Assembly (NCBI GenBank): GCA_030601745.1 | Contig: JAUWBI010000004.1 | Location: 1-64,000, forward strand | Length of the DNA: 64,000 nt | Reading direction: 5' to 3' | From: Phycisphaerae bacterium | GTDB taxonomy: Bacteria; Planctomycetota; Phycisphaerae; Sedimentisphaerales; Anaerobacaceae | Shown here: one piece after another, positions 1,398 to 51,810 of the stretch | How positions within the stretch are numbered: the stretch's first letter is position 1 | How the letters are laid out: each line of letters opens with the position of its first letter | Program-made: the position numbers and the translations under genes | Notes under the pieces: generated by a model | Seen by the model: only the letters and a program-made list of their open reading frames with translations | Databases searched by the model: none | What the model was told of the DNA's origin: nothing

Positions 1398-1480
1398 AAG
1401 CCACAAAACCGATTTTAGTTTAAATCATTTCTAACTCACAATTATACCTTCAGCAATGCGGCTGTCAACAAATATTTTTG

Positions 1481-3261: not shown

Positions 3262-4866
3262 TTAATCCTTGTTCCACCGGTCTATCATCTGTTGAATCCT
3301 TTCTCGCCTCCAATTGTTCGGCTTCGGATAGTCCTGGTTCGCTTCCAGCTCCTCAATGGACGGAGTCTTCGACGGCACGCCGTTGGGCGGCACCTCGGCC
3401 CCGGTAATCCACACCAGCGAGTTGAGCACAAGTTTACGGAAGTCATTGCTGGCCCAGCTCCAGTGCCAGTGCCCGCCTGTGAAACCGAAGCCGCGTCCGC
3501 CGTCCGGCCGCTCGTACGCCCACGCCACGTGCTCAGGCATACCCATCCGCTCGCGGACGTGCGGATTACCGCCGTGGGCACTATCCCCCCTTTTGCGTGT
3601 GCTGTCCGGCGGAATAGCTGTGAGTATCGGCGTTACGTTCTGCATGTTTTTGGCGAAGCGCATGTGGTAGTACCACTCGTCATTCATCGAGAAGGGCTTG
3701 ACGCCGCGGGTGATTGGGTGCTTCGGCAGTTCCTTGAATTCGCCTTCCCAGTGCGGGTTGACCGACCAGTAGGTCTCAAAATATCCGCCTATCCAGTCAA
3801 GCAGGTAATTGCCGGGCTTTCCCTTGGGTACCTCGACTCCATAGTGAAGGCAAGCTATGCCAACTCCCTTTTTCGCAAGTTTGTCCATCTCCTCAAGGTG
3901 CTGCATAACCACGTGCCCGCCGCCACCATCGCAGTAGATAGCGATAGCGTTGGCGTTGTCGAAGGCGGTCGGGTCCTTGGGCCAGCCGTTGCGGTACACT
4001 GCCGCGTGGATGTTGGGCATATTTTCATTTAGTTGTTTTGCGAGCAGCAGACACCCAGCGTTATGCTCGTGGGCGCCGTAACCGTGGCTGCGCGGGCCGG
4101 CTACCAGAACGACTTTTCTCTTTTGACGCATCTTCAACCTCTTGAGTTGAATGTCTTTGAACTGGACCGTCATCGGCGGCCCGGCGTGCAACTGCAGCGC
4201 CAGCACGCCCGACAGGTCCCTGTTTTTCTTGTCGTTGTCGACTACCTCTGCCGTGACCCTGCCGTTAATCTTAAGAACAATCCGGCTGCCACGGGCGATG
4301 ATGTGATAGTCGTTCCAGCCGTCCTTTTTGATGTTGGCCATCAGGGTCTTTGTGTCTCCGATTGACGTGCTGGTCTTCTTGCCGTCCGGGCTGATGATGG
4401 TTTTCTGTCCGCGCGCTGCGAGCATTCTGCGGCCGCGCTCGTCGTAGAGTGCTCCGGCCCATCTACCGCCCCGATCGATGTCCGCCTGGTAGCCGGCGAC
4501 ATGCCCGTCCTTGTCAACCCGGCTGCGGACCTGGACGCCGGAGTTGGCCGACGGGGTTCCGCTGATGCGGTACTTGAGCTTCAGCTCAAAGTCGTCCAGC
4601 TCACCCAATTGCCAGACGAGGAACTGATTCGACTTGACCGGATGCTGCCGCGTAGAACGACCGGTAATCGCGCCGTCATCCACCGACCAGTGGCTCATGT
4701 CCGGTGCTTTCCAGCCGTTAAGTGTCTTGCCATCGAAAATGGGCTTAAAGCCGGCCTCCTCGGCCAGCCCCTCGGAGGGGCGGGCCTCAGCGACAGCAGC
4801 ATCTGTAACAAGACCCACCAGACCGATCAACACGAGTCCAACGAGTTGCAAGTAAATTGTACGCAT
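3262..4866 (-). CDS. DUF1080 (3-keto-disaccharide hydrolase-like) fused to ThuA-like domain
   Basis: 534 residues with an N-terminal signal peptide. Residues about 40-245 form a DUF1080 lectin/glucanase-like sandwich: 'GFKPIFDGKTLNGWK', 'WSVDDGAITGRS', 'NSGVQVRSRV', 'GYQADI', and the closing 'GVLALQLHAGPPMTVQFKDIQLK'. Residues about 250-480 are a ThuA-like class-I glutamine amidotransferase-like fold: 'KVVLVAGPRSHGYGAHEH', 'GGHVV', 'GIACLHYG', 'FGFTGGHWHWSW'. Last gene of the minus-strand operon, 49 bases after the epimerase. Families and neighbours suggest processing of 3-keto sugars made by Gfo/Idh/MocA enzymes; this is inference. Confidence 0.85.
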   Translation of the reverse strand: MRTIYLQLVGLVLIGLVGLVTDAAVAEARPSEGLAEEAGFKPIFDGKTLNGWKAPDMSHWSVDDGAITGRSTRQHPVKSNQFLVWQLGELDDFELKLKYRISGTPSANSGVQVRSRVDKDGHVAGYQADIDRGGRWAGALYDERGRRMLAARGQKTIISPDGKKTSTSIGDTKTLMANIKKDGWNDYHIIARGSRIVLKINGRVTAEVVDNDKKNRDLSGVLALQLHAGPPMTVQFKDIQLKRLKMRQKRKVVLVAGPRSHGYGAHEHNAGCLLLAKQLNENMPNIHAAVYRNGWPKDPTAFDNANAIAIYCDGGGGHVVMQHLEEMDKLAKKGVGIACLHYGVEVPKGKPGNYLLDWIGGYFETYWSVNPHWEGEFKELPKHPITRGVKPFSMNDEWYYHMRFAKNMQNVTPILTAIPPDSTRKRGDSAHGGNPHVRERMGMPEHVAWAYERPDGGRGFGFTGGHWHWSWASNDFRKLVLNSLVWITGAEVPPNGVPSKTPSIEELEANQDYPKPNNWRRERIQQMIDRWNKD

Positions 4867-4915: not shown

Positions 4916-5767
4916 TTAGCCCGTGGCTTCCCACTGTTGCTTGACGAACTTCAAACCCTCGGTATAGACCTCTTCGTTGCTGGGAAAGAAATCGCGCCAG
5001 ACGCGGGTGGCAGCGGCCAGGTCCGGCAGTGCCCGCCCGAACGCCTCAATTACCAGCCATTGGTCGTAGCCGCCTGACCGCAGCGCCCTGAACGTGCCGG
5101 GCCAGTCGATATGGCCCTTGCCCGGCGTGCCACGGTCGTTCTCGCTGATGTGTACGTGTTTGATAACGCCAATGTGCTGACCGATGCAGCCGACCGGGTC
5201 CTTCTCTTCAATGTTGGCGTGGAAGGTGTCAAACAAAACGCCGAGGCTGGGGCGGTTGACGCGCTGAACGTAGTCCACTGCGTCAGCCATAGTGTTAAGG
5301 AAATAGCATTCGAAGCGGTTGAGATATTCCACTGCCAGGGTAACGTTAGCTGCAGCAGCAACCTTGGCGGCCTGACGGTGCACCTCGACGGCATATTGCT
5401 TTTCCTCTTCGGTGGGGCCCTGGCCGGTGAAAACGCCCAGCGGCTGGTAGAACGGCCCACATAGCACGGTGCTGCCCAGCGCTGCTGAGCAGTCGATTGC
5501 CCACTTGAGATACTCCACCGCTCCTTCACGGTGCCTGGCATCGGCACTAACGGGGTTGTGCTCCTCGTCCGGAATGACCGTCACGGATGTGCAGCCCAGG
5601 CCGTTGTCCTTGATTGCTTTACCGACCTTTTCAAAGTGCGCGGCGTCTCCCTCGAAGATGGGTACCTCGACACCGTCGTAGCCGACCTTCTTAAGTGTTT
5701 CCAGGAGGGGCAAGTCCTCTTCGGTAACGTGTGTGGTCCACAACAGCATGTTAAATCCGACTTTCAT
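4916..5767 (-). CDS. sugar phosphate isomerase/epimerase (TIM barrel, AP-endonuclease 2-like)
   Basis: 283 residues, no signal peptide, so cytoplasmic. Typical strand-end motifs of the xylose-isomerase-like barrel are present: 'GFNMLLWT', 'YDGVEVPIFEGD', 'LAVEYLNRFE', 'GVLFDTFHANIEE', 'KHVHISENDRGTPGKGHIDW' and 'VIEAFG'. The Glu of LAVEYLN, Asp of LFDTFH, His of HVHISE and Glu of VIEAFG are the expected metal-binding residues of tagatose 3-epimerase/hydroxypyruvate isomerase-like enzymes. Middle gene of the operon, 30 bases after thuA-like and 49 before DUF1080-ThuA. The exact sugar is unknown. Confidence 0.88.
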   Translation of the reverse strand: MKVGFNMLLWTTHVTEEDLPLLETLKKVGYDGVEVPIFEGDAAHFEKVGKAIKDNGLGCTSVTVIPDEEHNPVSADARHREGAVEYLKWAIDCSAALGSTVLCGPFYQPLGVFTGQGPTEEEKQYAVEVHRQAAKVAAAANVTLAVEYLNRFECYFLNTMADAVDYVQRVNRPSLGVLFDTFHANIEEKDPVGCIGQHIGVIKHVHISENDRGTPGKGHIDWPGTFRALRSGGYDQWLVIEAFGRALPDLAAATRVWRDFFPSNEEVYTEGLKFVKQQWEATG

Positions 5768-5797: not shown

Positions 5798-6601
5798 TTA
5801 CTTACTGCCTGGGGTTTTCTTCTGGGTCTTTGGAACAGGTGGCAGACCGGCCGCCCATGCACAACCTCGCCGGAATAGCTCAGCGGCACCCGGGTTGCGG
5901 ATGGCCTTGACGTCGTGACCCAACAAGCAGTGAAATACCCGGCCCTTGCCGTAGTTGAACGCGAACGCCATCAGGTAGTCTTTGCCGTCCACCTTTGAGC
6001 GAGCGGTGGCCAGTACATTGACGGGGCGATTACCCGTCAGGCAGGTGTACAGTTCATCATCGGTCTCGAAGGAATGCATGCCCCGCGTGATAGGGTGTTC
6101 GGCGTTCGTGATATTGACGCGGAAAGGCCCTCTGGGGTCGTGGGCCCTGGCTTTCGGGTCCCAGACCCTGCCGGCGAGGTTCCGAAATTCCGGCCAATCC
6201 TGGAAAGCACCGCAGCCAAAATGAATGATGAACAAACCCTTGCCAGCGTGGACGAATTCGCGGAGATTGGCTCGGGCCTTGGGACCAGGGGTAGGCTTCT
6301 GCCACGGCATAAAGTGCAGCACGACCACATCGTAGCGGTGCAATGCCGATGAATCAAGAAAGTGCGGGTCTTCCACCATGCGCACCTTTAACCGCGTGTC
6401 CTTATGGAGCACCTCGGCCAATACGGGGGCGGTCTGGCGCCAGTTGTGAGCGGGGTGGTCGATACCCGTTACGAGCAGCACATTGGCAGTCTGCTTCCCA
6501 AGTACAAAACCCCCCAAAACAACGCCAAAAACGGCGATAATCCAGACGGCGGCAAAAATCTTGCGTCCAGCTTGTTTTTTAATCAGGAAATTGATGCTCA
6601 T
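5798..6601 (-). CDS. ThuA-domain protein with a phage-supplied N-terminus
   Basis: 267 residues. From about residue 41 on, this is a ThuA-like domain: 'NVLLVTGIDHPAHNWRQTAP', 'YDVVVLHFMPW', 'GLFIIHFGCGAFQDW', 'HPITRGMHSF', 'FAFNYGKGRVFHCLLGHD'. Residues 1-34 lie on prophage DNA: a basic stretch (KKQAGRK) then about 22 hydrophobic residues, an uncleaved anchor or Sec-type signal. They join the host part in frame through the att core (residues 35-40, KQTAN). Without the prophage the gene would start at 51701 with a Tat signal and be 300 residues. The ATG at 6601 has no Shine-Dalgarno and lies about three bases from the expected start of the promoter at 6611-6638. Translation from this ATG is inference. 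Confidence 0.8.
   Translation of the reverse strand: MSINFLIKKQAGRKIFAAVWIIAVFGVVLGGFVLGKQTANVLLVTGIDHPAHNWRQTAPVLAEVLHKDTRLKVRMVEDPHFLDSSALHRYDVVVLHFMPWQKPTPGPKARANLREFVHAGKGLFIIHFGCGAFQDWPEFRNLAGRVWDPKARAHDPRGPFRVNITNAEHPITRGMHSFETDDELYTCLTGNRPVNVLATARSKVDGKDYLMAFAFNYGKGRVFHCLLGHDVKAIRNPGAAELFRRGCAWAAGLPPVPKTQKKTPGSK
6482..6497. other. attL, 16-bp core of the prophage
   Basis: ATTGGCAGTCTGCTTC here is identical to 51483-51498. Joining the outer flanks across one copy restores an open frame for the host ThuA gene, and joining the inner flanks restores one for the integrase. Two independent frame matches make this the attachment core with good certainty. Confidence 0.92.
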
Positions 6602-6610
6602 TTGGAGAAG

Positions 6611-6638
6611 ATTATACGGGCCTGGCCGAATTTGTCAA
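6611..6638 (-). promoter_or_regulatory. near-consensus sigma-70 promoter reading out into the host operon
   Basis: On the minus strand: TTGACA (6638-6633), a 16-base spacer, TATAAT (6616-6611). Both hexamers match the consensus exactly. Transcription should begin near 6604, about three bases before the ATG at 6601, giving an almost leaderless mRNA for thuA-like, epimerase and DUF1080-ThuA. It lies on phage DNA, inside the integrase C-terminal coding sequence. Confidence 0.75.
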
Positions 6639-6903
6639 CTGAATTACGGCGGGCAATTGTTAGAATGGTAGAATGACGGGGCAAAAAATATGTGGATTCT
6701 CAAAAAATTTATTGATAAAATTACATTTTTTTGTGGACAACTATATGAAGGAGATTCTAATATAGATTGCCTTTGGGGCAATGTCACAAAAAATTAGGTG
6801 GCAGAACAGCAAGGAGGTTGGGCTCCAAGATAGATATCGCATTTCGGCCCAACTTCCACGCGAAAATTATATTTGAGAAAGGTCTCTCTTTCTCTCAACG
6901 TGG

Positions 6904-7298: not shown

Positions 7299-7823
7299 AT
7301 GGCTAAAAAATATCAAATTATATATGCAGACCCGCCTTGGCCGATTAAATGGCAAGGCAGCAATTCAATAGGAACCAAACCATTAAAATATCCCACTATG
7401 ACTTTAATGGAATTGGCACAATTATCTGTAAAAAGCATTGCTGAAGATTGTAGTAAATTATTTTTGTGGACGACCAATGGCTTTTTGCCAGAAGCACTGG
7501 GCCTATTGAAATTTTGGGGATTTCAATATGATAAATTGTGGACGTGGTGTAAACCAACTGGGGCAGGCGGACATCCCCGCAACGCCACAGAACACATAAT
7601 CGAGGCAACACGAGGCGCATTAAAGTCTCTTGATAGACACGAGAAGGCCAGAAATAATTGGTTTACTGCCCCGACAAAAGGCCATTCTGTTAAGCCAGAC
7701 GAAGCCCGATTACTTATTGAACATTGTTATCCCAACACCACAAAAATAGAATTATTTGCCAGGGAAAAAATTTTGGGATGGGACGCTTGGGGCGATGAGG
7801 TCGAAAGCGACATTGAATTATGA
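7299..7823 (+). CDS. MT-A70 family adenine-N6 DNA methyltransferase
   Basis: 174 residues. The catalytic DPPW motif is in 'QIIYADPPWPIKW' (residues about 7-19). 'KLFLWTTNGFLPEALGLLKFWGF' and 'WCKPTGAGGHPRNATEHIIEATRG' follow the MT-A70 layout, and 'HSVKPDEARLLIE' resembles the S-adenosylmethionine-proximal 'HSrKPde' segment. No target-recognition domain or linked nuclease, so an orphan methylase, probably protecting phage DNA from restriction. First gene of the plus-strand phage operon; its stop overlaps the next start (ATGA). Confidence 0.9.
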   Translation: MAKKYQIIYADPPWPIKWQGSNSIGTKPLKYPTMTLMELAQLSVKSIAEDCSKLFLWTTNGFLPEALGLLKFWGFQYDKLWTWCKPTGAGGHPRNATEHIIEATRGALKSLDRHEKARNNWFTAPTKGHSVKPDEARLLIEHCYPNTTKIELFAREKILGWDAWGDEVESDIEL

Positions 7824-8056
7824 AAAAGCGACAGGAAAACACACCGCTTTTACGTGATTTTTCAAGCACAGCAAGAAGTTTGGGAATTGGGAAGTCATTG
7901 TTATATCAGATGGACAGTGACGGCAGGCTGGGGCCGAAAAAGATTCGGTTCGGCAGGCGGTCTCTATTAGATACTGAGGAAATAGCCGATTGGGTTCGGG
8001 CGGGGACACCCTGCCGTGATGTGTGGCAAAAGATGAAAAAGGAAAGGAGGCAGTGA
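7820..8056 (+). CDS. small helix-turn-helix protein, AlpA/excisionase-like
   Basis: 78 residues. 'TARSLGIGKSLLYQMDSDGRLGPKKIRFGRRSLLDTEEIADWVRAG' is the MerR-like HTH_17/AlpA pattern: HTH, wing with 'irfGRR', then a helix ending in W-V. Such proteins act as excisionases or activators of prophage excision. Coupled on both sides by ATGA overlaps to the methylase and the CsrA-like gene. With the integrase 43 kb away in the lysogen, it becomes its near neighbour on the excised circle. Confidence 0.75.
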   Translation: MKKRQENTPLLRDFSSTARSLGIGKSLLYQMDSDGRLGPKKIRFGRRSLLDTEEIADWVRAGTPCRDVWQKMKKERRQ

Positions 8057-8259
8057 TGTTGTGTTTGGCATTACAAGCGGACGATAAAATTATGATTAAG
8101 GAAAACGGGCGGTTACTTGCAACGATTCGCATACCAGACAGCGTTGCTTATACAGAAACAAAATTATGTTTCGATGCACCGAGGTCAACGAACATCGTCC
8201 GGGGAAAAGCAGCAAGAAGGAAGCGCAATCGCAAAAAAAAACCCAACCTAATTACATAA
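8056..8259 (+). CDS. CsrA-like RNA-binding regulator encoded by the phage
   Basis: 67 residues from the ATG at 8056, which has AAAGGAGG seven bases upstream and overlaps the previous stop; a start at 8023 would lack this. The sequence follows CsrA: 'MLCLALQADDKIMI' matches MLxLxRxxgexixI, and 'KLCFDAPRSTNIVRGKA' matches 'RIGVNAPKEVxVHREEI', with AP and the RNA-contacting Arg retained. A Lys/Arg-rich tail (ARRKRNRKKKPN) is extra. Known CsrA dimers bind GGA in hairpins over ribosome sites. Here it could control phage or host mRNA translation. Confidence 0.7.
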   Translation: MLCLALQADDKIMIKENGRLLATIRIPDSVAYTETKLCFDAPRSTNIVRGKAARRKRNRKKKPNLIT

Positions 8260-8278
8260 TTGATAAGGTTCTTAAGTG

Positions 8279-9214
8279 ATGGAACACTCTTTCAATATAG
8301 AAATTGCACAAAAATATGGTGTCAACGCAGCAATCGTGCTCCGGCATATTCAGTTCTGGATTATCAAAAACAAAACACACAACAAACATATTCACGATGG
8401 TCGGACTTGGACCTATTATTCTCTGAACGCCTTTACGAAGATTTTCCCATACCTGTCGAAAAAACAGGTCCGGAGAGCATTACAAATCTTATTAGACAAC
8501 GGGGTGATCCTCAAGGCCGACTATAACAAATACATAAATACCAGGACGAGCTGGTACGCCTTTGTGGATGAAAGCTTGTTTGTGCCTGAGGGCAGACGAA
8601 ATAAAAGTTCGTGTGCCCCTGAGGGCACACCAGATAAAAGTTCGTGTGCCCCTGAGGGCACACCAAAGAAGAAAAGTTCGTGTGCCCCTGAGGGCACACC
8701 TTGTGCCCCTGAGGGCACACCATTTGCCCCTGAGGGCACACTATTTACAGATAAAGATAAACAGATAAGTGAAACAGATGAATCAACAGATAAGTCAAGG
8801 ATTTCTCAAGAGGGGGGTTTATCTTCAAAAGACTCTGACAAACATTACGCCTGCACACTACTCAGGCGCTATGGTGTTGATGTCGAGGTGGCCCGACAAA
8901 TAGTTTACGACCAGCACATACCGTTAGAGAGCATTACGGAAGTCATCAAGAACGGCCTGGCGAAAGAAATAAAATCAAAGCAGACCGATGGCAGGTTCGT
9001 GCTTGAGGCCGGCTATATTATTAAGACCCTGAACCAGGCCCGGAGCGAGGGAAAGACCGTAGGCCCGACGAAGCTGAGTAAAGCGTTGGCAGCCAAATTA
9101 TCAATACCACAGAAAGACCGCGTTCGACCCTCGCCGGCGGAGATACGAAAGCGTGTACGCCGTATGAAAGCTCAAGTAGCGGCAATGAAGGACACGGATG
9201 GAAACAACGCTTAA
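8279..9214 (+). CDS. replication initiator-like protein with iterons in its gene
   Basis: 311 residues from ATG 8279. The N-terminal 100 residues ('VNAAIVLRHIQFWI', 'TWTYYSLNAFTKIFPYLSKKQVRRALQILLDNGVI') form a winged helix like those of phage and plasmid replication proteins. Residues about 104-155 are a tandem SSCAPEGTP repeat encoded by six near-identical palindromes. The C-terminal part ('YACTLLRRYGVDVEVARQIVY') resembles the C-terminal domain of such initiators and ends basic. Phage lambda O likewise carries origin iterons inside its gene. A role in replication is inference from domain layout and position. Confidence 0.65.
   Translation: MEHSFNIEIAQKYGVNAAIVLRHIQFWIIKNKTHNKHIHDGRTWTYYSLNAFTKIFPYLSKKQVRRALQILLDNGVILKADYNKYINTRTSWYAFVDESLFVPEGRRNKSSCAPEGTPDKSSCAPEGTPKKKSSCAPEGTPCAPEGTPFAPEGTLFTDKDKQISETDESTDKSRISQEGGLSSKDSDKHYACTLLRRYGVDVEVARQIVYDQHIPLESITEVIKNGLAKEIKSKQTDGRFVLEAGYIIKTLNQARSEGKTVGPTKLSKALAAKLSIPQKDRVRPSPAEIRKRVRRMKAQVAAMKDTDGNNA
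8579..8741. repeat. six palindromic iterons, probable phage replication origin
   Basis: The unit TGTGCCCCTGAGGGCACAC is a perfect 7-bp palindrome (TGTGCCC/GGGCACA) around CTGA. Copies begin near 8579 (degenerate), 8612, 8645, 8689, 8702 and 8723, spaced 13-44 bases. They are in frame and encode CAPEGTP. Palindromic iterons within an initiator gene are the classic layout of a phage origin. Confidence 0.65.
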
Positions 9215-33145: not shown

Positions 33146-36100
33146 ATGGCAAGATTTGATTTTCAGCCAGAACGAAAGTTTGACTTCAGGCCGATTGAAA
33201 AAAAGTTTGCTTTCAGGCCAGAGCCGCCCGCAGTAACCCAGGTTATAGAAGCTCCAGAGCTTACCCGTATTGACCAACCAGCCCCCACAATAGCCCCAGA
33301 ACCGCCCAGGATGCCCCCTGCTGCGAGAGTTCCTACCGAAAGGCCCGTGATAGCTCCTGAATTGCCTCGCCCCGAATATATAACTACGCCAAGAGATATA
33401 AGACCGCCCGAAATCCCAGACCTTACTCGTATTGCCGAGCCGACCGTTAAGGCAAAACCGTTTAGTTTGTTCGGTAAGTCGTTCATACAACAACTTGCTG
33501 GCCGTCCGGCAATGATGTTGCGTGGTGCTCAAGTTTATACGCCAGGCAAAAGTCTTGGATTAGACCCCTTAATGCAGCAGGCAAGTTTTTATCTTGAATC
33601 GCAAAGAGACCCTGTAATAGCAAAGGAAATCGAGCAAGCTGCCAGAGGCAAACTCTGGCCGATAGGAGACGACCAGAAGTGGTGGAAGGTCGAAAAGAAA
33701 TACCTGCCTGAAACGATAAATGCTTGGGCTGCTAATGTGGGAGCCCAAGTCCCTATTATGCTCATCACGCAAGCGGGCCGAATGTTAGGAAAGGTCGTTG
33801 GTAAACCTGTTGGTGCTGCTGTTGGTGCGGCGGCAGCATTAGTTACCGGCGGCCCCGACCCGACAGACGTTGGAACTGCGCCTATTGTTGCCAAGATAAC
33901 AAGTGGGGTAATAAAGCATCTCGGCGGAGCTGTGCCTTTGGTGGCAATGGAAGCTGGTGGCTTTATGGACGAAGCGGAGAATCTTGCTATTGATAAAGAC
34001 ATCAGCGAAAAATATGCACGAATTTATGGACTCGGCAGCGGGACAATAGAGTACGCCCAATGGTTATTTGTTTTGGGTTCATATCGAAGGCTTGCCAGAC
34101 CAGCCCAGAAAACAATCGTCAAAAAGATACTGATTGAAATTGGTGGCGATGCCGTTGAAGGATTAGAGGAAATCTCGCAGGAAGGTCTGCAAAACAAGCT
34201 GCTTCAAAAAGCCGTTGCTGAAATGAAGCAACGGTATCCTGACTATACAGGCCAAGCCCCGAAAACGTGGGCGGGTTGGAAACGTGCCGGTGCGATTGGC
34301 GCAGGGACAGCGTTTATCACCCGCTTACCAGGGCATGGCCTTACAATGGCCGAGGGTAGATTAGCAAGGCGAAAAATCGTTGAATCCCAAATAGTACCAC
34401 CTGCCGCAGAAGTACCCGAAATAACGCCTGAGCCGCCCATTGCTGGCCCAAAACTCCCTGTGGTAGAACCAACAGAAGTAACAGAACCAATAGAGCCTGA
34501 ATTACAAGAATTATTAAAATCAAAACCAGCAAGCATAAACAAATTCCTGCCAAAAAGCGATACCCGAATAATAACAAAAGAAGGCGAATACACAAATGGT
34601 GTATGGCTTATAAAGAAAGAGTTTGTGCCACCCAAAGTCAAAGAAAGAATTGATGCAGAACCTTCTGGCAGGGAATTGTCGTCTAAAGATATATATCCCG
34701 AAGATGAAGGGAGTTTTTCAGTAGGTATCGTTGGAGTTGCAAACCTTGATTATAAACCTTCTTATGTTTTGCGTAATGCAGAAGGCGTAGAAATTGGAAT
34801 AGATAAAGATTTTTACGATTATCTCGATAAACATATCCCTAATTTCAGACTAACATTCAAAAAAGGAGATGCGCCAGCAGCTATATATTCAGGCCGCCAA
34901 AAAGCAGGTTTGATTATGCCCGTTACTATATCTGAACCAAAATATATTAAACCCTCTGAAGAACCACCCACAATAGCCGCCGAGCCGACCGCAGGCAAAA
35001 AATATGAAGGAAAAGCATACAGGGCCGAAACTGGTTTGGTTATCAAAGGAGAAACTGCTGCTGATGTTGTAAGATATGAGCAGGAGGACCTGGGAAATGA
35101 TTTAGGGGTCTCAGAAGAAAAAATTGCAGAATTAGAAAAGCGTCCTGAAAAGGATATTGTTTGGGTTGCCAGGGACAGGGAAACAGCAGCAAGATATGGC
35201 GAACCAGAAGAAGTAACGGATGCTGTTGTTGGTGGTGAAATAATCGCCGAAATTCCTGATGGTGTTTTAGTTCTCAAGCCCGCCGTTGAAAAAGCAGCAG
35301 AAGTGAAACCCAAATTCAAAGTCACCAGAGCACGTATTCCAATCACCAAAGAAGGAGTAGTGCCGGAAGTGATATCGGAAAAGAGATACACTGCCGAAGG
35401 CGAGGAAATCGAACCCGCCGAGCCTGCCGAAGAACTGTGGAAAATGACCAGGGAAGAATACGAAGCCACGCCTGACTTTCAAAGAATATACGGCAGAACG
35501 GAAGGCAAAAATCGAGAAGCTGCGCTTAGTGTCCACAAGATTGCGGTCGAAGATGCTTTAGCCAAAGGCGAACCCGTCCCCAGCCACGTTCTTGAAAGTT
35601 ACAAAACCGAGGAATGGGCACAAGAGGCCCTCGCCCCAGCCAAGCCAACTGCCGAAATAAAAGCCCCTGTAAGTGATGAGGTAATAAACTTGATAGAGGC
35701 AGGCTTCAAATTGAAAGATGGGCGTATTATCTCAACGGGCCACGTTCACGCTTTGCCTGAAAACATTTCTGTAGAGGATGTTGCAGAGGTTGGTTTCGTT
35801 CGCATTGACACAAATGAGTTTATGAGTAGAGAGGAAACAGAAAAACTTATTGGAACGAGCGATACCACAGAACTTATAAAATTAAAAGAAGCCATAGAGA
35901 AAGCCGAGCCGACTGTAGAGGGGCAGCTCACGAAAAAAGCCTTTGATGATTATTGGGCCGAAGTAGGAGATAAGCCGGAATTGTTAGAGGATGCCGTTTT
36001 AGAATATGTGGCCAACGCTAATCAAGAGTTCAAAGACCTTGAAGACAAGCTGATGGAGATAGAGGAAACTGACCCCGTAGGTCATACCGCCGAACACAAG

Positions 36101-39100
36101 AAAGTGATGGGCCAACTTGATAAAATCCGTGCGGATTTAGAGGCCAAAATCCGAGCCGTTGAGAAGGTTGCACCTGCGAGACCGATACCAAAAGGCATCA
36201 TAGTAAAGCCGCCCGCTGAAAAGCCTGGTGTCGGCACTGTTGATAACATCAATGTAATCGGCCTTGCGGACAGGTTTTCGGAACGGCTAAAGACTATAGA
36301 GGCACCGATTGACAACAGGCAGGTCAAGCAATGGGTGGCTGAGGAATTAGGTGTTTCGGAATCCGAGTTAAGGCCCGAAAAGGGTTACTCCCACAAGAGA
36401 GTACAGGAAGCGATGGAATTGGCCCTTGTAAGGGCAGCCAGGAGCATTGTCGAGGAGAATAGAGGACAGCCTGATGAAACCTTTAGACGTTTACAGCAAT
36501 TATACGAGCGTCAGCCCATCCTTGCAGCTCGAACAGGAATTTCAATCAAAAGGCAGGCATATTCCACGCCGGCACCATTGGCTTTCATAGCTAATGAGCT
36601 TGCACATATAACACCTGACACAATGATTTATGAGCCAACAGCCGGTACGGGTATGCTTACGATCGGTTCCGTTCCGAATATGACCGTTGTCAATGAACTT
36701 GACCCTACCAGAGCGGAAATATTACGTTCACAAGGCTATTACCAGGTCAGCCAAAAAGATGCACGAGCCATATCACCTAAAATCGAAAAGAGCTTTGATG
36801 CCGTCATAATGAATCCGCCTTTTGGAAAACACAAGACCGTTCCTTATGACAAATTCAAGCTATCTCACATTGAGCATATCATAGCCGCCGAGAATCTAAA
36901 AGCGATGAAAGATGAAGGCCGGGCGGTAATGATAATAGCGGCACCCAAGAAAATGGGTAGGTATTCAACCCCTGAATGGGTCTTTGGAAACTACATTTAC
37001 AGCCATTATAACGTTACAGGGGACTTTGAAGTAGCGGGGGATTTGTACCGCAGACAGGGAGCTGCGTGGCCCGTAAGGGTTATAGCAATTCACGGTCGAA
37101 AAAAATCTGAAAAATATGGCCCCAAAAAAGGAATTTTCCGTGCAAATACCTGGGAAGAAGCGTATAATAAGATGAAGGAGATTTTGGCAGATGAGCCGGA
37201 AATTATATATCCCGCCGCCAGAGAGAAGCCTGTCGGCCCTGAGGGTCTTAGGGGTCGAATTGAAAGGCGGCCCGCCGAAGAGTTGGAGCCGGTACGAGAA
37301 CCTGCTGCGGAGCCGATTGAACCGGCTGGCGAAAGACCGGCGGTCGCGCGCAGGCCTGGTGAACGAATTACTGAACGACGCCCTGCTGAACGAAGACCCA
37401 GGGGACGAGTTGTTAGAGTTCCTGCTGGCGAGCGAGAGGTACAGCCAGAACCATTTCGTTTGGCAAAGCCTGTTTTACCTGACCGCAAAGCCCCCTCAAA
37501 AGAGAAAGCTCCTGGCGAACGCCCGGAAAGACCCGCAGTTCGCAAAGCTGAACGAGAACCAGAAGTTGAACGAGTTGAGAAGCGTAAGCCTGTGGGAGTG
37601 GTGGGACCTTCTGCGTTAGGCAAACTTCAAATCCCATACAAACCATCCTCAAAAGCACCAGCGCCAAATGAGAACATTCCTACTTATCTTGAACCTCACG
37701 TTACTGCTGCTCTTGAAAATCTCAAACAAAATGTCGGCGATATAGATGAATATGTCAGGGAGCAATTACAGTATGAATCAAACGAGAGGATGTGGGAGCA
37801 TCTATCGGCCTCACAAGTAGATTCTATTGCATTAGCTTTGGATAAAATTGATAAGCGTTCTGCTATGGTCGTAGGCCATCAGACCGGAGTGGGAAAAGGC
37901 AGGGTTGCCGCCGGTATTGTTAGGCGAGAAATCATTAACGGGCGAAAACCGATATTCTTCACTTCCGGTAAACATTTATTTACTGATTTCTTTCGAGACT
38001 TATTTGATGTCGGATTAACCGAAGACCAAATCAAGCCACTGATGATGAACGCTGACGTTGATATTAAAGACCAGCAAAATAGAGTGATAGTTAAACAACA
38101 CGGCAACCGAGCTGTTGCGGACCAGGCAATTCACAAGGCAATACAAACAAAAGACTATAATTTAGTCTTATCCACCTATCACCAGATTAACACCGAAACG
38201 CGCAAGCAGCGAGCGCAGCTTGCAACTCTTATGCCTGGCAATTTACTTATTCTTGACGAATCACACAACGCCGCCGGCGAGAGTCAAACCGGTGAATATC
38301 TCAAAGAGATACTGATTCCTCATTCAGCGGGAGTTTTATTCAGTTCTGCCACTTACGCAAAGACGCCCAAAACTATGGCTTTATATGCCCGGACGGGACT
38401 TCTGGATGCCTTTGATGGCGATACTGAAAATATGCTCGATGCTGTTCAGACCGGTGGTGAGCCGTATCAAGAAGTTATTGCCGCTGCTCTGGCCCGCGCC
38501 AATTCCTATATACGGACTGAACTGGATTTTTCCGGTATCAAATATGAAACGACTATTGACGCACGACATCTTGATAGAGACGCGGAAAGAGCAGACAGGG
38601 TTACATCTGTTTTAAGAGATATAATTGCATTTGACAATTACTTCGCAAAAGTGATTGTTGACCCTGTAAAGAAGGAAGCGAAGGCACAAGCCAAAAGACG
38701 CAGGGGGCCGGCTATGACTGTCGGCCATACGAACTTTGCCGCAGTCAGCCATAATGCCATCAAACAGATGCTACTTACACTCAAAATAGACGAAACCATA
38801 GAACAGGCAAAACAAGCACTACAGGCCGGCCAGCGCCCCATCATAGCCTTAGAGAATACAATGGGTTCTTTTCTGAAACGCTATGTTGAACAGCACGGAC
38901 TTAACGCCGGTGATATTATTAAGGATTTCGATTATCGTGAAGTCCTGCTCAATATGCTCCGCAACACCCTATCTTACACCATTGTACACGGCTGGGGCGA
39001 TATTGAAGTTATCAAGGTTCCGCTTGAAGAATTGCCATTGGATGCTCAAGACGCATTTCATAGGGCTGAAAACGATATAAAAGAAATGGAGCTGGACTTG

Positions 39101-42100
39101 CCGGGTTCCCCCATTGACGAGATTATCAGCCGACTTGAGGCCGAAGGCCACAAAGTCGGAGAAATAACAGGTCGTGAAATCCGACTAATCAAAAAAGGGA
39201 AAAACGAATACGAATTAGCCCATCGACCTGCAAAAGAGCGCGACAAAACCAGTATAGTATATGATTACAACAATGGCTCCACCGAAGTTCTCGTTGTCAA
39301 TGTCGCAGGCGCCGAGGGAATGAGTGCTCACGCCTCAAGGGATTTCAAAAATCAAGAGAAGCGGGTAATGATAGTTGCTCAACCTGCGGCAGATATTAAC
39401 AAATTCGTCCAGATTCTCGGACGCATCAATCGCAAAGGCCAGGTAATTGACCCTGAATATAAAATCCTGATGACCGCACTTCCGTCTGAGATAAGACCTG
39501 CGGCTATTCTTGAGAACAAGATGCGCTCGCTTAATGCAAATACTTCTGCAAAAACAAAGGGTGCCTATCAGCAGAAAGAAATACCGGATATTCTCAATTT
39601 GTATGGTGAGTACATCACGGCCCAGTATATCATTCAGAACCCCGATATTCTCAAACAGATGGGATTAGACCTTGAAATTAGTAAATATGCCAATGCGATG
39701 TCCGAAGGCAATTATCACGGCCCCTGGAATGAAGATAAGGTGGCAAGACGTTTTACGGGCAGACTTGCCTTGTTATCCACAGACCAGCAGCAGGAATTTT
39801 ATGAGTGGGCCGAGCCGACATTCAATAGTCTAATTGACCTTCTTAATAAAACAGACCAAAACGAGCTTGTCAGCGCCGACAAGGACTACAAAGCCGAATT
39901 GGTAGATTCCAAGACTATATTCGTAGGTGAGCCAGGCAATATCTTTCAAGAGCCGGCCACTTTGGACAAGATGAGCACAGTTCTCGAAGGCCGGCCAATG
40001 ACTACTGTTGAGATTAAAGATGAGGTCCAGCAGGTAGTTGAGGCCGCTAATTTATCAACTCCAAGTGCTTATATGGAGTATATGAGGACGAGAATTGATA
40101 CCGCCTGGGGAGAATATCAAGCAGCTCGTAAGCGCAAGGGCAAAAAGGTACGACAAAGTTCTGTCAATGCCCAGGAGAAAGGGAAAGATATGCTGCGTTA
40201 TCTCAAATTGTCCTCTGTCCGCGCCGATGGCGAGGGTAATCCTTTTGTCCTTTTGGAAATCATAGATTCTTTCGGCAAGAAGGAATACGCAATCAATCCA
40301 GCGGCGCCGAGTAATATTCGGGTTAGAATTGCAATTCCGCATCCTGCCCGGACGGCTGTTATCTCTTTGGGGCAATTTCATAATTCACAGTCTTTTTACG
40401 GCAATCTTGACAAATACTTTAATATTCCCGCTGACCAAAAAGAGGAGCGCTACATAGCCAATGGTAACATCATAGCCGCAATGGGTGTTCTGGTGGGTGA
40501 TAGTGAAAAAGGTAAACAAGTCCGGCCAAAGGTTATCAATTACACAATGGCCGATGGAAGCAGAAGACAGGGCTTGTTGTTACCAAAGACTTATGACCCT
40601 GCTTACGACCTTCCGTCTTCGGTTAATATGATACCCGAAGCTGCGGCGGCTTATCTAATGGAACAACCAACGGGAACAGCACATCTGAAAATGGGCGAAG
40701 CGCGAATAATCAAAGTTGCAACTAACAGCGTTTATATTGAAGTGCCAAAATCCAAAGCTCGTGGTTTGAAATATTTTGGCGATACAGGTCTTAAAGAATT
40801 GGTCGGCGAATTTGAGACCTGGCGACAGGCAATGAGGGCCGATTTCAGTGCTGACATACTTCTTGATGTTTTGAACTATCTGAAAAGCAGGGGCAATGCG
40901 ATAAAAAGCGATGATGCTGCTCCTGAAACGGCGAGGGAATATAATAACGCTCACCGTGATAGAGGCGAAGCGGTAGGATTCGCTGAGCCGGCCAAAGAAA
41001 TAAAAATAGCACTGCAGCGCGGAGTAGCCAGGCCTGCGGATATTTCACAAAGACAAATAATTCAATTTTTGAGCAAAAGTTTTGGTATTCCCATTAGAGG
41101 AATAGCGACTTTCAGAAAGAAAAAGCCTGGCTGGTATAATCAGCGGACTCGCGGCATACGATTGAAAAATGTCAATAGTCTCAGAGTGGCTGCACACGAA
41201 GTTGGACATCATATTGACATATATTTCAATAACAAAGCCAGTGTAAAGATGTCACACGCCTGGTACGGCCTGGGTGCCGAGCTCGTCAGATTGGGTAAAG
41301 CAGTTTATGGAAAGAAAAGACCCAAAGAAGGTTATAAGATGGAAGGCTACGCCGAGTTTGTATTCGGCTGGCTTACCGGAGCCATTGACCTTAAAAAAGA
41401 AGCGCCCCAGATGCTTCAATTTTTTGAGAAAAGCTATCTGAAAGACAATGCCGAGATAGCGGATATTCTCCACACCGCCCGTGATATGATAGACAAATGG
41501 AAAGAGCAGGGCGCCGAGGCCAGGTTCGATTCGCAGATAGGCCAGAAATTAAGACCTGAAAAGAATTGGAAAGAAAGGTTTAGTCTGTGGTTCCAGACGG
41601 CGTTTACCGATGTATCAGCGCCTATACAGAGAGCTTTACACGAGAACATTCCTGCAAGAAGCATTTGGTTCGGCAGTAAAGACCCTGGATTTCTATATCA
41701 ATTCTTCGCGCAGACCGAAGGTGCGAGGGCGATAACGATGGTGGAAGAACACACCATAGACCTTTGGGGCAATCCTACCGGAAAGTCTCTGCGTGCAGTT
41801 CTAAAACCAGTAGCACACCAGATAAAGGATTTTGTTCGCTATGTCGTAGCGGCCAGGGCGATAAATCTAAATGCCAGAGAAATCGAATCGGGATTTGATA
41901 TAGAAGATGCTGTCTATATCTTCAAGAAATACGATTCCCCACAATGGAGAAAAGCAGCTCACGAACTGACCGAGTGGAACCATAGGATTCTGGATTATCT
42001 TGTTCAGGCCGGCGGCCTCGAAGAAGAAGCTGCAAAACAGATGAGAGAGCTTAATCCTATTTATGTCCCCTTTTTGCGGAGCTTTGCGCCCGGGGAGAAA

Positions 42101-44107
42101 CGAAGAACGCCGAGAGGCGTTGGTCGGGGACTAATAAGACGGGGCAAAGGCGTCTATAAAATCACGGGTTCCGGCAGGGGTATTGACGACCCGATAGAAT
42201 CTATGATAACCCAAACCCGCCGAATGATTTCGATAGCCCATAAATCACTTATAGCCCGTGCTTTTGTAGAAGTTGAGCAGAAAACCCCTGGTCTTTCAGG
42301 TTTAATAGAAAGAGTCCCGCCGCCAATGAAGGCCACTACATTTAATGCTTCACAACTCAAAAAACAGTTAATTGATTTGGGTATTGATGTCGAACCAGGC
42401 GAACTTGATGATGCGATGTTTACTGTCTTTAGCAATTCGCCTATCTTTTTAGGCAAAGAACACATCATTTCAATAATCGGCGTGGATGGTAAGAGACAGT
42501 GGTTTGAAATTGCCCCTGAGCTTTACAGGGTTCTTGAATCTCTTGACCAGTTCCAGTTGCCGAAAGCCTTCAATCTGATACTTGGCAAAGCCTGTAGATT
42601 GTGTCGTTTAGGTGCTACTGGTATTCACGCCGCCTTCGGCCTGGTCCGAAATCCTATAAGAGATATTATGGATACCGTAGTAAAGGCCAGATATGCCAGG
42701 GGGCCAGCGGCTTTTGTAAAAGGAGTAGCCAAAGACCTTTCAAATACCGGGCTTGCAAAAGCATTAGGAATAGAGCCAAATAAAGCGGCAGAGAGATTCA
42801 CTGATATCGGCGGTCAGATTTCAGGATATTTAGGACAAGATAGAACTTCCATACAGCATTTAAGAGGCTCGGCACTTAGCAACACGGTTGGAGAACATAC
42901 TATTGAAACAGTCAAACATCCTATTATTGTCTTGCGAAAGCTCTTTGGAATACCGGAGTCGGGATTGAGGATTGAGGAATTTGAGCGGGCATTAAAGGAC
43001 TGGATGGAAAAACATCAGCCACAGGGCGGCGAACCATCACCGGATGCTATCGTGTATGCTTTTGCGATGGCGTCAGACCAGACCATCAATTATCGCCGGG
43101 CTGGTCTCTATGGTAGATGGCTCAACGGAATGATTCCTTTCTGGAACGCCAATGCGCAAGACCCATCGAAAGTCTATCGGACTTTTACTGGTGATAGAGC
43201 AAAGCAAGCTGCTTTGTGGGGTCTTGCTGCTCTGACTTTACCTGCGATCGGAATATGGTGGTTGAACAAAGATGAGGAATGGTGGAAGGAATTACCGCCC
43301 TGGGAGAAGGCGAATAATATCCATATTCCCATCTTTAAGCGGGCCAAACAAATACCGATTCTTGGACGAGTGATTACAAAATACAAACAGGGCGAGGAAG
43401 TTGATTACATTTTCCGTATTCCTGTTCCGTTTTTGGTGGGCCACATCTTTCAGAGTATGCCGGTTACGATTTTGGATGCCCTTTATAATTTAGACCCCCA
43501 AAAAATTAGTGATTTTCTCGGTGAAGTTTATAACGCCGATGTAAAACCTCTGTTCGATTGGCCCGCAGCGATAGGCCCATATCTTGACTTGCGAAGCAAT
43601 AAGGATTGGGCGGGCCGAGCGATAATTCCCCCGTCAGTTGAAGGAAAGTTGCCAGAAGACCAGTATAAACATTACACTACCGAGTTTTGCAAAGCCATAG
43701 GCAAAATATTCAACGTTTCGCCAGCGCAGATAGAGTATGCACTTAACTCTTATTCGGGAGGTCTCTATCGCCGACCCGGGCGCATAGCCGGAATCATTAC
43801 CAAAGCCCCAGAAGAAAGACAACCTGCCGACTGGCCTGTAATCGGGACTTTATTTGTTCGTGACCCATTTGCACCGAAAGAATCCATCCAAAGATTTTAC
43901 GAAGAAAAAGAGCGTCTCAACAGGATGTATCAATCGGGCAAAATCGTAGCGGGAAGTGAACTCGGCAGAAAAAGAAAAAGGTATAACTATATCAGCACAA
44001 AATATCTGTCCCTGTATTGGAAAAGGCTACAAGAGGCAAAATTGATTTCAGAACGCAAGCGGATTTATGGAAAAATTGGAGAGTTGATTAAGAAGAGCAC
44101 CTCATAG
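33146..44107 (+). CDS. giant polyvalent protein: methylase, helicase, metallopeptidase
   Basis: 3653 residues. Pro-rich start; Ala/Gly-rich, membrane-active-looking helices (about 110-420). An N6-adenine methylase-like domain follows (about 1140-1290; SAM motif 'YEPTAGTGM' at 1162, NPPF at 1223). After a Pro/Glu/Arg linker (about 1370-1490) comes a Strawberry-notch/DarB-like SF2 helicase (about 1540-2140; 'GHQTGVGKGR' at 1575, 'LILDESHN' at 1704, 'LGRINRKGQ' at 2091). A zinc peptidase motif HEVGH is at 2684. A C-terminal stretch with 'MIPFWNANAQDPSKVYRTF' near 3327 resembles the LPD38 domain of polyvalent proteins. Families suggest co-injection with phage DNA for antirestriction, as with P1 DarB. 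Substrate effects are inference. Confidence 0.85.
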   Translation: MARFDFQPERKFDFRPIEKKFAFRPEPPAVTQVIEAPELTRIDQPAPTIAPEPPRMPPAARVPTERPVIAPELPRPEYITTPRDIRPPEIPDLTRIAEPTVKAKPFSLFGKSFIQQLAGRPAMMLRGAQVYTPGKSLGLDPLMQQASFYLESQRDPVIAKEIEQAARGKLWPIGDDQKWWKVEKKYLPETINAWAANVGAQVPIMLITQAGRMLGKVVGKPVGAAVGAAAALVTGGPDPTDVGTAPIVAKITSGVIKHLGGAVPLVAMEAGGFMDEAENLAIDKDISEKYARIYGLGSGTIEYAQWLFVLGSYRRLARPAQKTIVKKILIEIGGDAVEGLEEISQEGLQNKLLQKAVAEMKQRYPDYTGQAPKTWAGWKRAGAIGAGTAFITRLPGHGLTMAEGRLARRKIVESQIVPPAAEVPEITPEPPIAGPKLPVVEPTEVTEPIEPELQELLKSKPASINKFLPKSDTRIITKEGEYTNGVWLIKKEFVPPKVKERIDAEPSGRELSSKDIYPEDEGSFSVGIVGVANLDYKPSYVLRNAEGVEIGIDKDFYDYLDKHIPNFRLTFKKGDAPAAIYSGRQKAGLIMPVTISEPKYIKPSEEPPTIAAEPTAGKKYEGKAYRAETGLVIKGETAADVVRYEQEDLGNDLGVSEEKIAELEKRPEKDIVWVARDRETAARYGEPEEVTDAVVGGEIIAEIPDGVLVLKPAVEKAAEVKPKFKVTRARIPITKEGVVPEVISEKRYTAEGEEIEPAEPAEELWKMTREEYEATPDFQRIYGRTEGKNREAALSVHKIAVEDALAKGEPVPSHVLESYKTEEWAQEALAPAKPTAEIKAPVSDEVINLIEAGFKLKDGRIISTGHVHALPENISVEDVAEVGFVRIDTNEFMSREETEKLIGTSDTTELIKLKEAIEKAEPTVEGQLTKKAFDDYWAEVGDKPELLEDAVLEYVANANQEFKDLEDKLMEIEETDPVGHTAEHKKVMGQLDKIRADLEAKIRAVEKVAPARPIPKGIIVKPPAEKPGVGTVDNINVIGLADRFSERLKTIEAPIDNRQVKQWVAEELGVSESELRPEKGYSHKRVQEAMELALVRAARSIVEENRGQPDETFRRLQQLYERQPILAARTGISIKRQAYSTPAPLAFIANELAHITPDTMIYEPTAGTGMLTIGSVPNMTVVNELDPTRAEILRSQGYYQVSQKDARAISPKIEKSFDAVIMNPPFGKHKTVPYDKFKLSHIEHIIAAENLKAMKDEGRAVMIIAAPKKMGRYSTPEWVFGNYIYSHYNVTGDFEVAGDLYRRQGAAWPVRVIAIHGRKKSEKYGPKKGIFRANTWEEAYNKMKEILADEPEIIYPAAREKPVGPEGLRGRIERRPAEELEPVREPAAEPIEPAGERPAVARRPGERITERRPAERRPRGRVVRVPAGEREVQPEPFRLAKPVLPDRKAPSKEKAPGERPERPAVRKAEREPEVERVEKRKPVGVVGPSALGKLQIPYKPSSKAPAPNENIPTYLEPHVTAALENLKQNVGDIDEYVREQLQYESNERMWEHLSASQVDSIALALDKIDKRSAMVVGHQTGVGKGRVAAGIVRREIINGRKPIFFTSGKHLFTDFFRDLFDVGLTEDQIKPLMMNADVDIKDQQNRVIVKQHGNRAVADQAIHKAIQTKDYNLVLSTYHQINTETRKQRAQLATLMPGNLLILDESHNAAGESQTGEYLKEILIPHSAGVLFSSATYAKTPKTMALYARTGLLDAFDGDTENMLDAVQTGGEPYQEVIAAALARANSYIRTELDFSGIKYETTIDARHLDRDAERADRVTSVLRDIIAFDNYFAKVIVDPVKKEAKAQAKRRRGPAMTVGHTNFAAVSHNAIKQMLLTLKIDETIEQAKQALQAGQRPIIALENTMGSFLKRYVEQHGLNAGDIIKDFDYREVLLNMLRNTLSYTIVHGWGDIEVIKVPLEELPLDAQDAFHRAENDIKEMELDLPGSPIDEIISRLEAEGHKVGEITGREIRLIKKGKNEYELAHRPAKERDKTSIVYDYNNGSTEVLVVNVAGAEGMSAHASRDFKNQEKRVMIVAQPAADINKFVQILGRINRKGQVIDPEYKILMTALPSEIRPAAILENKMRSLNANTSAKTKGAYQQKEIPDILNLYGEYITAQYIIQNPDILKQMGLDLEISKYANAMSEGNYHGPWNEDKVARRFTGRLALLSTDQQQEFYEWAEPTFNSLIDLLNKTDQNELVSADKDYKAELVDSKTIFVGEPGNIFQEPATLDKMSTVLEGRPMTTVEIKDEVQQVVEAANLSTPSAYMEYMRTRIDTAWGEYQAARKRKGKKVRQSSVNAQEKGKDMLRYLKLSSVRADGEGNPFVLLEIIDSFGKKEYAINPAAPSNIRVRIAIPHPARTAVISLGQFHNSQSFYGNLDKYFNIPADQKEERYIANGNIIAAMGVLVGDSEKGKQVRPKVINYTMADGSRRQGLLLPKTYDPAYDLPSSVNMIPEAAAAYLMEQPTGTAHLKMGEARIIKVATNSVYIEVPKSKARGLKYFGDTGLKELVGEFETWRQAMRADFSADILLDVLNYLKSRGNAIKSDDAAPETAREYNNAHRDRGEAVGFAEPAKEIKIALQRGVARPADISQRQIIQFLSKSFGIPIRGIATFRKKKPGWYNQRTRGIRLKNVNSLRVAAHEVGHHIDIYFNNKASVKMSHAWYGLGAELVRLGKAVYGKKRPKEGYKMEGYAEFVFGWLTGAIDLKKEAPQMLQFFEKSYLKDNAEIADILHTARDMIDKWKEQGAEARFDSQIGQKLRPEKNWKERFSLWFQTAFTDVSAPIQRALHENIPARSIWFGSKDPGFLYQFFAQTEGARAITMVEEHTIDLWGNPTGKSLRAVLKPVAHQIKDFVRYVVAARAINLNAREIESGFDIEDAVYIFKKYDSPQWRKAAHELTEWNHRILDYLVQAGGLEEEAAKQMRELNPIYVPFLRSFAPGEKRRTPRGVGRGLIRRGKGVYKITGSGRGIDDPIESMITQTRRMISIAHKSLIARAFVEVEQKTPGLSGLIERVPPPMKATTFNASQLKKQLIDLGIDVEPGELDDAMFTVFSNSPIFLGKEHIISIIGVDGKRQWFEIAPELYRVLESLDQFQLPKAFNLILGKACRLCRLGATGIHAAFGLVRNPIRDIMDTVVKARYARGPAAFVKGVAKDLSNTGLAKALGIEPNKAAERFTDIGGQISGYLGQDRTSIQHLRGSALSNTVGEHTIETVKHPIIVLRKLFGIPESGLRIEEFERALKDWMEKHQPQGGEPSPDAIVYAFAMASDQTINYRRAGLYGRWLNGMIPFWNANAQDPSKVYRTFTGDRAKQAALWGLAALTLPAIGIWWLNKDEEWWKELPPWEKANNIHIPIFKRAKQIPILGRVITKYKQGEEVDYIFRIPVPFLVGHIFQSMPVTILDALYNLDPQKISDFLGEVYNADVKPLFDWPAAIGPYLDLRSNKDWAGRAIIPPSVEGKLPEDQYKHYTTEFCKAIGKIFNVSPAQIEYALNSYSGGLYRRPGRIAGIITKAPEERQPADWPVIGTLFVRDPFAPKESIQRFYEEKERLNRMYQSGKIVAGSELGRKRKRYNYISTKYLSLYWKRLQEAKLISERKRIYGKIGELIKKSTS

Positions 44108-50030: not shown

Positions 50031-51563
50031 ATGAGAGTTTACAAACCGAGCTACACAAAACCCTTGCCGGAGAAGGCAAAGATTTCCTCCCGCAAGGGTA
50101 AACGATTCGCAAAGTTCAAGGATGCAAAAGGCCACACAGCCGAAGCACGTCTAACGCAGGCGGGCGATAAGATTCTCTGCGAGACCGTGCACTGGCATAT
50201 CGGCTTCGAGGACAACCGAAGTATTCGTAGACAGCTAAAAGCGTTCACCAATGAGCAGGCAACGAAACGTCTGGCCGATAGAATCCAGCAGCTTTTGAAC
50301 TGCAAGGCGAACAACCTGACACCTGATACAGGATTGCAGAAATTTCTTGAGCAGATACCCGCTACGATACGGGATGAGCTTATCAGCTTTGGGTTGCTGG
50401 ACGGGACGGCGGCGGGACGAACCCTTGCCGAGCGCATTGAGGATTTTCGGGACTACCTGACAAAGAAGGAACGGAACCCTAAATATATCAGGGGAACCAT
50501 ATCGGGCATAAAGCATTTATTCGCCGACTGTGAATTTGAAAGTTGGAGCGATATAAACGCCGATAGGTTAAAAGCACACCTGGACGAATTGAGGGACAGG
50601 GGGGACGGGATAAGTAAGCGAACCTATAACAGCAAGCTGAAAGCGGCGAAACATTTTTGCCACTGGCAGGCAAAGCAATTACGCACAACGTCTTCGATAG
50701 ATTTTATTGAGGGATTAGATAACGAGGGCACAGACAGGCGGCACGAACGCAGGGCGGCTACGCCTGACGAGATACGCAGACTGTTAGAGGTTACGGCTGC
50801 GGGGCCGGAGCGTTACGGAATGAGCGGCAGGGAACGCAGCTTGTTATATCGGTTTGCTGTCGAGACGGGATTTAGGGCCGGAGAAATTAGCACTTTAACA
50901 ACGGGCTGTTTCGACTTTGACAATCTGACCGTAACCGTTAAGGCCGGTTACTCGAAGCACAGACAAGAGGACGTCCAGGCGATAAGGCCGGAATTGGCAG
51001 CGATGTTAAAAGAGCATTGTCGGGGCAAGCTGCCGACAGTAAAAGTATTCGGCGGCTCTTTTAAGCAGTTGACCAACAAGGCGGCGGATATGTTAAAACT
51101 TGACCTTGCGGATGCGGGGATACCGTATATCGAGAATGACAGGATATTCGACTTTCACGCTTTCCGCCACACTTTCGTTACCAGCTTGCGTAATGTATCG
51201 AGCAGGACGGCCCAGGCGTTAGCCAGACACAAAAGCTCCGCTATGACCGATAGATACACCCATATCGAGTTACACGATGAGAGGACGGCTCTGGCCGACC
51301 TGCCGGATTACGGTGCGCCGAGCAGGGAAAGTCAAAGGGCCACAGGGACGGACGATAAAATCTTGTCGAAATCTTGTTTTCAGGATGCACACACACGGAC
51401 ACAAGCGGAAACTGGCGGACAGAAAACCGCTTTAGCGACACAAAAAACGCCGTTGGGGGCTGGTAACAAGGGGGCTGATAGGATTGGCAGTCTGCTTCTT
51501 TTCGGCGACCGCCGTCGCGGCTGCACTGGCCCCGCCCCTCGGAGGGGCTGGGCTGGCAGCTGA
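50031..51563 (+). CDS. tyrosine-type integrase, C-terminus swapped by integration
   Basis: 510 residues as it stands. A SAM-like core-binding domain (about 135-230) precedes the catalytic domain with the tyrosine-recombinase set: Arg in 'VETGFRAGEI', Lys near 'KAGYSKHRQ', HxxR in 'FHAFRHTFV', His in 'LARHKSS', Tyr in 'MTDRYTH'. Residues 1-489 are phage-encoded. The last 21 (LFGDRRRGCTG...) are read from host DNA beyond the core at 51483-51498. In the excised circle the frame continues into 6498-6676 and gives 548 residues with the typical 'W..L...R.AI..MV' end. Confidence 0.93.
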   Translation: MRVYKPSYTKPLPEKAKISSRKGKRFAKFKDAKGHTAEARLTQAGDKILCETVHWHIGFEDNRSIRRQLKAFTNEQATKRLADRIQQLLNCKANNLTPDTGLQKFLEQIPATIRDELISFGLLDGTAAGRTLAERIEDFRDYLTKKERNPKYIRGTISGIKHLFADCEFESWSDINADRLKAHLDELRDRGDGISKRTYNSKLKAAKHFCHWQAKQLRTTSSIDFIEGLDNEGTDRRHERRAATPDEIRRLLEVTAAGPERYGMSGRERSLLYRFAVETGFRAGEISTLTTGCFDFDNLTVTVKAGYSKHRQEDVQAIRPELAAMLKEHCRGKLPTVKVFGGSFKQLTNKAADMLKLDLADAGIPYIENDRIFDFHAFRHTFVTSLRNVSSRTAQALARHKSSAMTDRYTHIELHDERTALADLPDYGAPSRESQRATGTDDKILSKSCFQDAHTRTQAETGGQKTALATQKTPLGAGNKGADRIGSLLLFGDRRRGCTGPAPRRGWAGS

Positions 51564-51701: not shown

Positions 51702-51810
51702 AATCAAACTCCTTGTCGTTGGGATTTTATAACCGTTCGGGCCTCCTGCGAACCCAAGTATTTCACTTGACTGGACAGGGCTATACACCCAGCAGCAAAA
51801 CACCCGTTCG

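Follow-up and report, generated by a model that had tools for sequence, protein, structure and literature searches.

In the window analysed here (the whole stretch of 64,000 nucleotides), a tyrosine-integrase prophage of about 45 kb has recombined at a 16-bp core within thuA. The core lies in the 5' part of this gene, which is the first of three in a keto-sugar operon. The integration left the conserved promoter, the Shine-Dalgarno (SD) sequence, the start codon and the RR (Tat-type) leader of thuA at attR, and the remaining thuA body now adjoins the severed 3' end of the integrase gene (int). There the antisense strand of the int tail carries a perfect host-type promoter, an ATG and an in-frame hydrophobic leader, so that from this phage DNA the lysogen would most likely express a ThuA that is exported or anchored in the membrane, together with the two enzymes encoded downstream. 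In the free phage, the same DNA is predicted to encode the C-terminus of the integrase. The promoter and start codon look like a gain of this lineage and not a conserved phage device. As a whole, integration in thuA with a new, lineage-specific gene start antisense to the int tail is the explanation that we favour, and we hold it to be reasonably probable.

Insertion of the prophage inside thuA

A 16-bp exact repeat, ATTGGCAGTCTGCTTC, marks the two ends of the prophage. The attL copy (6482-6497) lies inside thuA and carries the codons for KQTAN, and the identical attR copy (51483-51498) lies inside the 3' end of int. When the host flanks are joined computationally at this core, they form one continuous thuA ORF, which begins at ATG 51702 with the SD AAGGAG and encodes the leader MTLHTSSSTKLKRPGHLTRRQFLAG..., then KKQTANVLLVTG and then the ThuA body. 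In this native leader, which is Tat-like by eye, an RR motif precedes a hydrophobic stretch. RR leaders occur at the matching place in the empty-site relatives G014, G016, G017 and G018, and a different hydrophobic leader is present at thuA in G015 and G020. Because the joined host flanks form a single ORF and empty-site relatives carry comparable leaders, we place the insertion in the 5' part of the thuA gene itself and not in front of the operon.

The native start of the gene is still recognisable at the other end of the prophage. Upstream of native thuA in the six genomes compared, conservation is highest over the 30 columns of TTGACAAGTAGCCGCAAGGCGCGTTATGTT (51913-51884, minus strand), of which 18 are invariant compared with a mean of 5, and the conserved native promoter TTGACA-18-TATGTT is found here. 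This promoter and the 5' end of native thuA with its SD, start codon and RR leader (51499-51702, minus strand) are now stranded beyond attR, reading antisense into int. The preliminary description proposed that the phage cuts the operon off from its own promoter. That is true, but the insertion lies within the first gene and replaces the ribosome-binding site, start codon and RR leader together with the promoter.

In the lysogen, thuA (5798-6601, minus strand; ThuA, PF06283) is chimeric, with a host body (5798-6497) and a phage-derived N-terminus (6498-6601). It is followed on the same strand by a gene for a sugar isomerase-like TIM barrel (4916-5767; PF01261) and by one that combines a 3-keto-disaccharide hydrolase with a ThuA domain (3262-4866; PF06439 and PF06283), and this order of three genes is conserved in relatives with sufficiently long contigs. 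A GH116 gene was also considered as an operon partner and rejected, since no GH116 was found upstream of thuA in the examined upstream flanks of six relatives. It appears to be a chance neighbour, and its separation from the operon, pointed out in the preliminary description, is for the same reason probably of no consequence.

Among the other phage genes in the window, one encodes a large polyvalent protein of 3653 aa (33146-44107) with strawberry-notch-type helicase domains and LPD38, and another a protein of 977 aa (45403-48336) in which RCC1-type repeats are joined to a beta-helix domain. Six near-copies of TGCCCCTGAGGGCACAC form a short palindromic repeat array within a phage ORF (8581-8741).

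The integrase tail and the new gene start

The tyrosine integrase gene (50031-51563, plus strand) matches the Phage_integrase domain PF00589 (E = 6.6e-15) and phrog_1 (E = 3.5e-30). Its integrated form encodes 510 aa, the last codons being host DNA. When the phage ends are joined, a computational step on which the attP-in-int layout rests, one Int of 548 aa results, whose frame crosses the core, continues over 6498-6676 and ends in ...EIDAHLEKIIRAWPNLSTELRRAIVRMVE. Hence attP lies inside int and integration splits the gene, leaving its severed 3' end at the left end of the prophage (6482-6676, plus strand). The catalytic domain match (residues 244-412) stays within the 510-aa form.

The window appears to hold one member of a planctomycete family of tyrosine integrases with attP in their own 3' coding part (here 50031-51563 and 6482-6676; further loci L068, L147 and L149). 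In this family, integration detaches a conserved tail, DPDLxxVIxxWPxLSxELRxAIxRMV, which stays behind as an orphan ORF at the opposite end of the element. The ends also join in frame to an integrase with a similar tail in G059:C187 (tRNA-Lys, 30-bp core), G072:C247 (44-bp core) and G073:C492 (52-bp core), and 12 of 19 related integrase loci have a tRNA gene that overlaps the int frame at its 3' end. The int of G059:C187 (72% identity) was considered as the partner of the thuA prophage and rejected, as it is part of a distinct small element located at the tRNA-Lys gene.

On the minus strand of the severed tail, TTGACA (6638-6633) and TATAAT (6616-6611) are separated by a 16-nt spacer and form a perfect sigma-70-type promoter (6611-6638; 12/12 consensus match). 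The site is situated on the phage side of the att core and reads out of the prophage, across att, into the host operon. Nine bases separate the -10 box from ATG 6601-6599 (CTTCTCCAA), and the minus-strand sequence before this ATG contains no SD. Transcription would be expected to start at about 6604-6602, a position computed from the sequence, and the leader would then comprise only about 0-3 nt before the AUG, implying near-leaderless translation. The exact promoter, its outward direction and the close ATG without SD agree with the preliminary description, which had also regarded the outward segment as a promoter region of the phage. This last view does not hold: promoter and leader lie antisense to the phage's own int 3' end (6482-6676), and the segment is no free promoter region.

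Several features of the genome help to judge this site. Counting exact patterns only, with the reversed pattern as control, TTGACA-N16-TATAAT occurs 11 times in the own 3.45-Mb genome (control: 0) and the N17-spaced form 19 times (control: 1), and all of the other 29 perfect sites fall outside long ORFs. From this excess over the control and this placement, we take exact perfect sites to be real promoters in the host to a good approximation. The other 29 sites have no ATG-started ORF of 70 aa or more that begins less than 37 nt past the -10 box, and the near-leaderless layout at 6611-6638 is therefore an outlier among the perfect promoters of the genome. We count the missing SD and the 0-3 nt leader at ATG 6601, unlike every other perfect promoter here, against the explanation that we favour. 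The one planctomycete examined in PMC5397173 has nucleotide biases that would fit leaderless mRNA or initiation dependent on S1, and this indirect genomic bias is what our literature search on leaderless mRNA in Planctomycetes returned.

A weaker outward promoter-like site, GTGACA-17-TATATT (6759-6787, minus strand; 10/12), is located about 160 nt upstream of ATG 6601 and could yield a longer leader, likewise without SD. Within the operon itself, between 3262 and 6600, the minus strand has no promoter-like site of at least 10/12, and a search for RNA elements at the junction with Rfam finds only a tRNA-Lys at 55315. Elsewhere in the window, a second perfect TTGACA-16-TATAAT (1441-1468, minus strand) precedes the ORF 594-1406, with 43 nt to its ATG.

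The phage-supplied ATG opens a hydrophobic leader of 35 aa (6498-6601, minus strand) in frame with thuA. The ThuA of the lysogen would begin MSINFLIKKQAGRKIFAAVWIIAVFGVVLGGFVLG-KQTAN..., and its frame is intact from ATG to stop. The maximum 19-aa hydropathy of the new leader is 2.63, against 2.38 in the native one. By eye it has neither an RR pair nor a clear cleavage site, and for these reasons a membrane anchor seems as likely as a cleaved signal. To what extent such features follow from the coding of the int tail was estimated by re-encoding the tail peptide with synonymous codons in 10,000 trials. The antisense hydropathy of the recoded window tail has a median of 2.21 and a 95th percentile of 2.63; because a hydrophobic antisense stretch is so often obtained, the leader alone is weak evidence. 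A 12/12 antisense promoter arose in 0.9% of the 10,000 recodings of the window tail peptide and in none of 10,000 recodings of the corresponding peptide of the related prophage in G059, which is described below.

The promoter match may accordingly be read as a chance by-product of int-tail coding, in which case thuA would be unproductive in the lysogen and the operon either off or driven from another start. The frequency of perfect matches among the recodings is in line with such an origin, as are the absence of an SD, the outlying leader length and the fact that the sister lysogen in G059 apparently lives without the promoter. We nevertheless consider it unlikely, given that this genome has far more perfect sites than the control and that these lie outside long ORFs, that the thuA frame is unbroken from ATG to stop, and that the ATG coincides with the very place where the int tail departs from the family motif (D-A-H-L in the window, mostly DPDL or DPNL in the other tails).

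A sister prophage without the gene start

G059, a genome of the same genus, contains a related prophage at exactly the same thuA core. Its segment is 74% identical to that of the window over 195 bases, with the frame and stop of the int tail kept. The site corresponding to the promoter reads CTGATA-16-CACAAT (8/12), no ATG, GTG or TTG is available for a leader, and a TAG stands before KQAESKIF. The sister prophage restores no leader start, and restoration is hence not a property of the element family. The hydrophobic stretch, as judged from both sequences, is common to the two prophages and arrived with the phage tail. The G059 locus may represent a silenced operon.

The promoter region is not conserved between the window and G059, which is the only other known lysogen at this site. 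None of the other readable int tails of the family has an antisense promoter above 10/12, and at the homologous position their scores are 6-8. The preliminary description, in which the operon is given a phage promoter, is thus right in that the DNA is phage-derived, but the promoter in this DNA is not a conserved one. Differences between the window and G059 tails are spread evenly over the codon positions (17/15/18), a pattern that neither supports nor excludes constraint in either frame. G059 was the only close relative among genome contigs searched by int; viral contigs searched by the int protein, by the att core and then with tblastn gave no relative, and neither did known phages searched by the int protein.

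Other comparisons with G059 are of interest in themselves. About 26 bp (AACAACGCCAAAAACGGCGATAATCC) at 6517-6542, near the attL core, are identical in the two genomes and are perhaps a binding site for the integrase or an accessory protein. The thuA of G059 (L067:6803-7456) shares 71% identity with that of the window, against 88-92% for its neighbours; over the first 58 residues past the core the two differ very little, and they diverge from there on. Behind thuA comes an additional TIM-barrel gene (7463-8470) whose product has an RR leader, and the operon of G059 seems to be a mosaic.

Since G059 and the other int tails lack the promoter, the promoter and start codon are probably a lineage-specific gain, by chance or selection, on a pre-existing hydrophobic antisense frame. 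With two lysogens only, a gain here looks the same as a loss in G059, and a change before integration the same as one after it. It is possible, though we advance it tentatively, that selection after integration built the promoter and start codon on the antisense of the severed int tail, beside the existing hydrophobic stretch, and so rescued the operon and gave ThuA a new leader that targets it to the membrane, to the detriment of the C-terminus of the phage integrase.

Selection might instead have acted on the phage, making promoter and leader a phage function that renders the insertion in thuA harmless to the host, as in the SXT elements in prfC or the islands in dusA. A perfect promoter, a start and a leader, all in place and in frame, would be expected of such a function, and there are published precedents (PMC8409611, PMC6814406). 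The sister prophage at the same core without promoter and start, and the other readable int tails of the family, never above 10/12, make this improbable. The same lack of conservation, in the sister prophage and in the other tails, speaks against a promoter that serves the free phage by acting antisense to int and lowering integrase after excision, with host expression as a side effect. In the joined circle a transcript from 6603 would indeed pass the core and continue antisense to int; even so, we regard this role as very improbable. For the lineage-specific gain that we favour, the occupied sister site without promoter and the empty-site relatives make a gain or loss of the gene start after integration testable.

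Comparison with known integrative elements

The prophage in thuA is a concrete case of an insertion that rewrites how a host gene is controlled and, with it, the export signal of the product, and it shares features with three kinds of known systems. In Escherichia coli, an outward promoter of phage HK022 replaces the native promoter of torS (PMC6814406). Likewise, the promoter at the left end described here belongs to the phage DNA and faces across att towards a host gene whose native promoter is cut off. One native torS start is within 3 bp of the putative start codon and has no canonical SD (PMC6814406), which resembles the layout at ATG 6601. However, HK022 integrates between genes, its promoter lies past the int stop codon, with 73 bp from that stop to the junction, and its promoter region is conserved across HK022-like prophages.

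The SXT/R391 ICEs in prfC and the dusA islands, for instance IMEVchUSA3, supply their target genes with a promoter and an N-terminus (PMC8409611, PMC4482086). As in these elements that restore a gene at its 5' end, the att core in thuA lies inside the 5' coding part of a protein gene, and the new promoter and in-frame start come from the element. The new N-terminus provided by IMEVchUSA3 is as long as the native one, with 61% identity over 35 residues, whereas in thuA the RR export leader gives way to an unrelated hydrophobic one whose coding sequence lies antisense to int. Unlike these islands, moreover, the thuA element has a sister at the same site that lacks promoter and start.

Recombinases that disrupt their own gene have been stated to be found only in archaea (PMC8371274). 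Our survey points to a bacterial integrase family with attP in its own gene, in which every integration would sever a conserved C-terminal tail. The arrangement is like that of the archaeal suicidal integrases of SSV1 and pTN3 (PMC8371274), as attP is inside int and integration splits the coding sequence, but in the bacterial integrase only the C-terminal tail is severed and the catalytic part stays whole.
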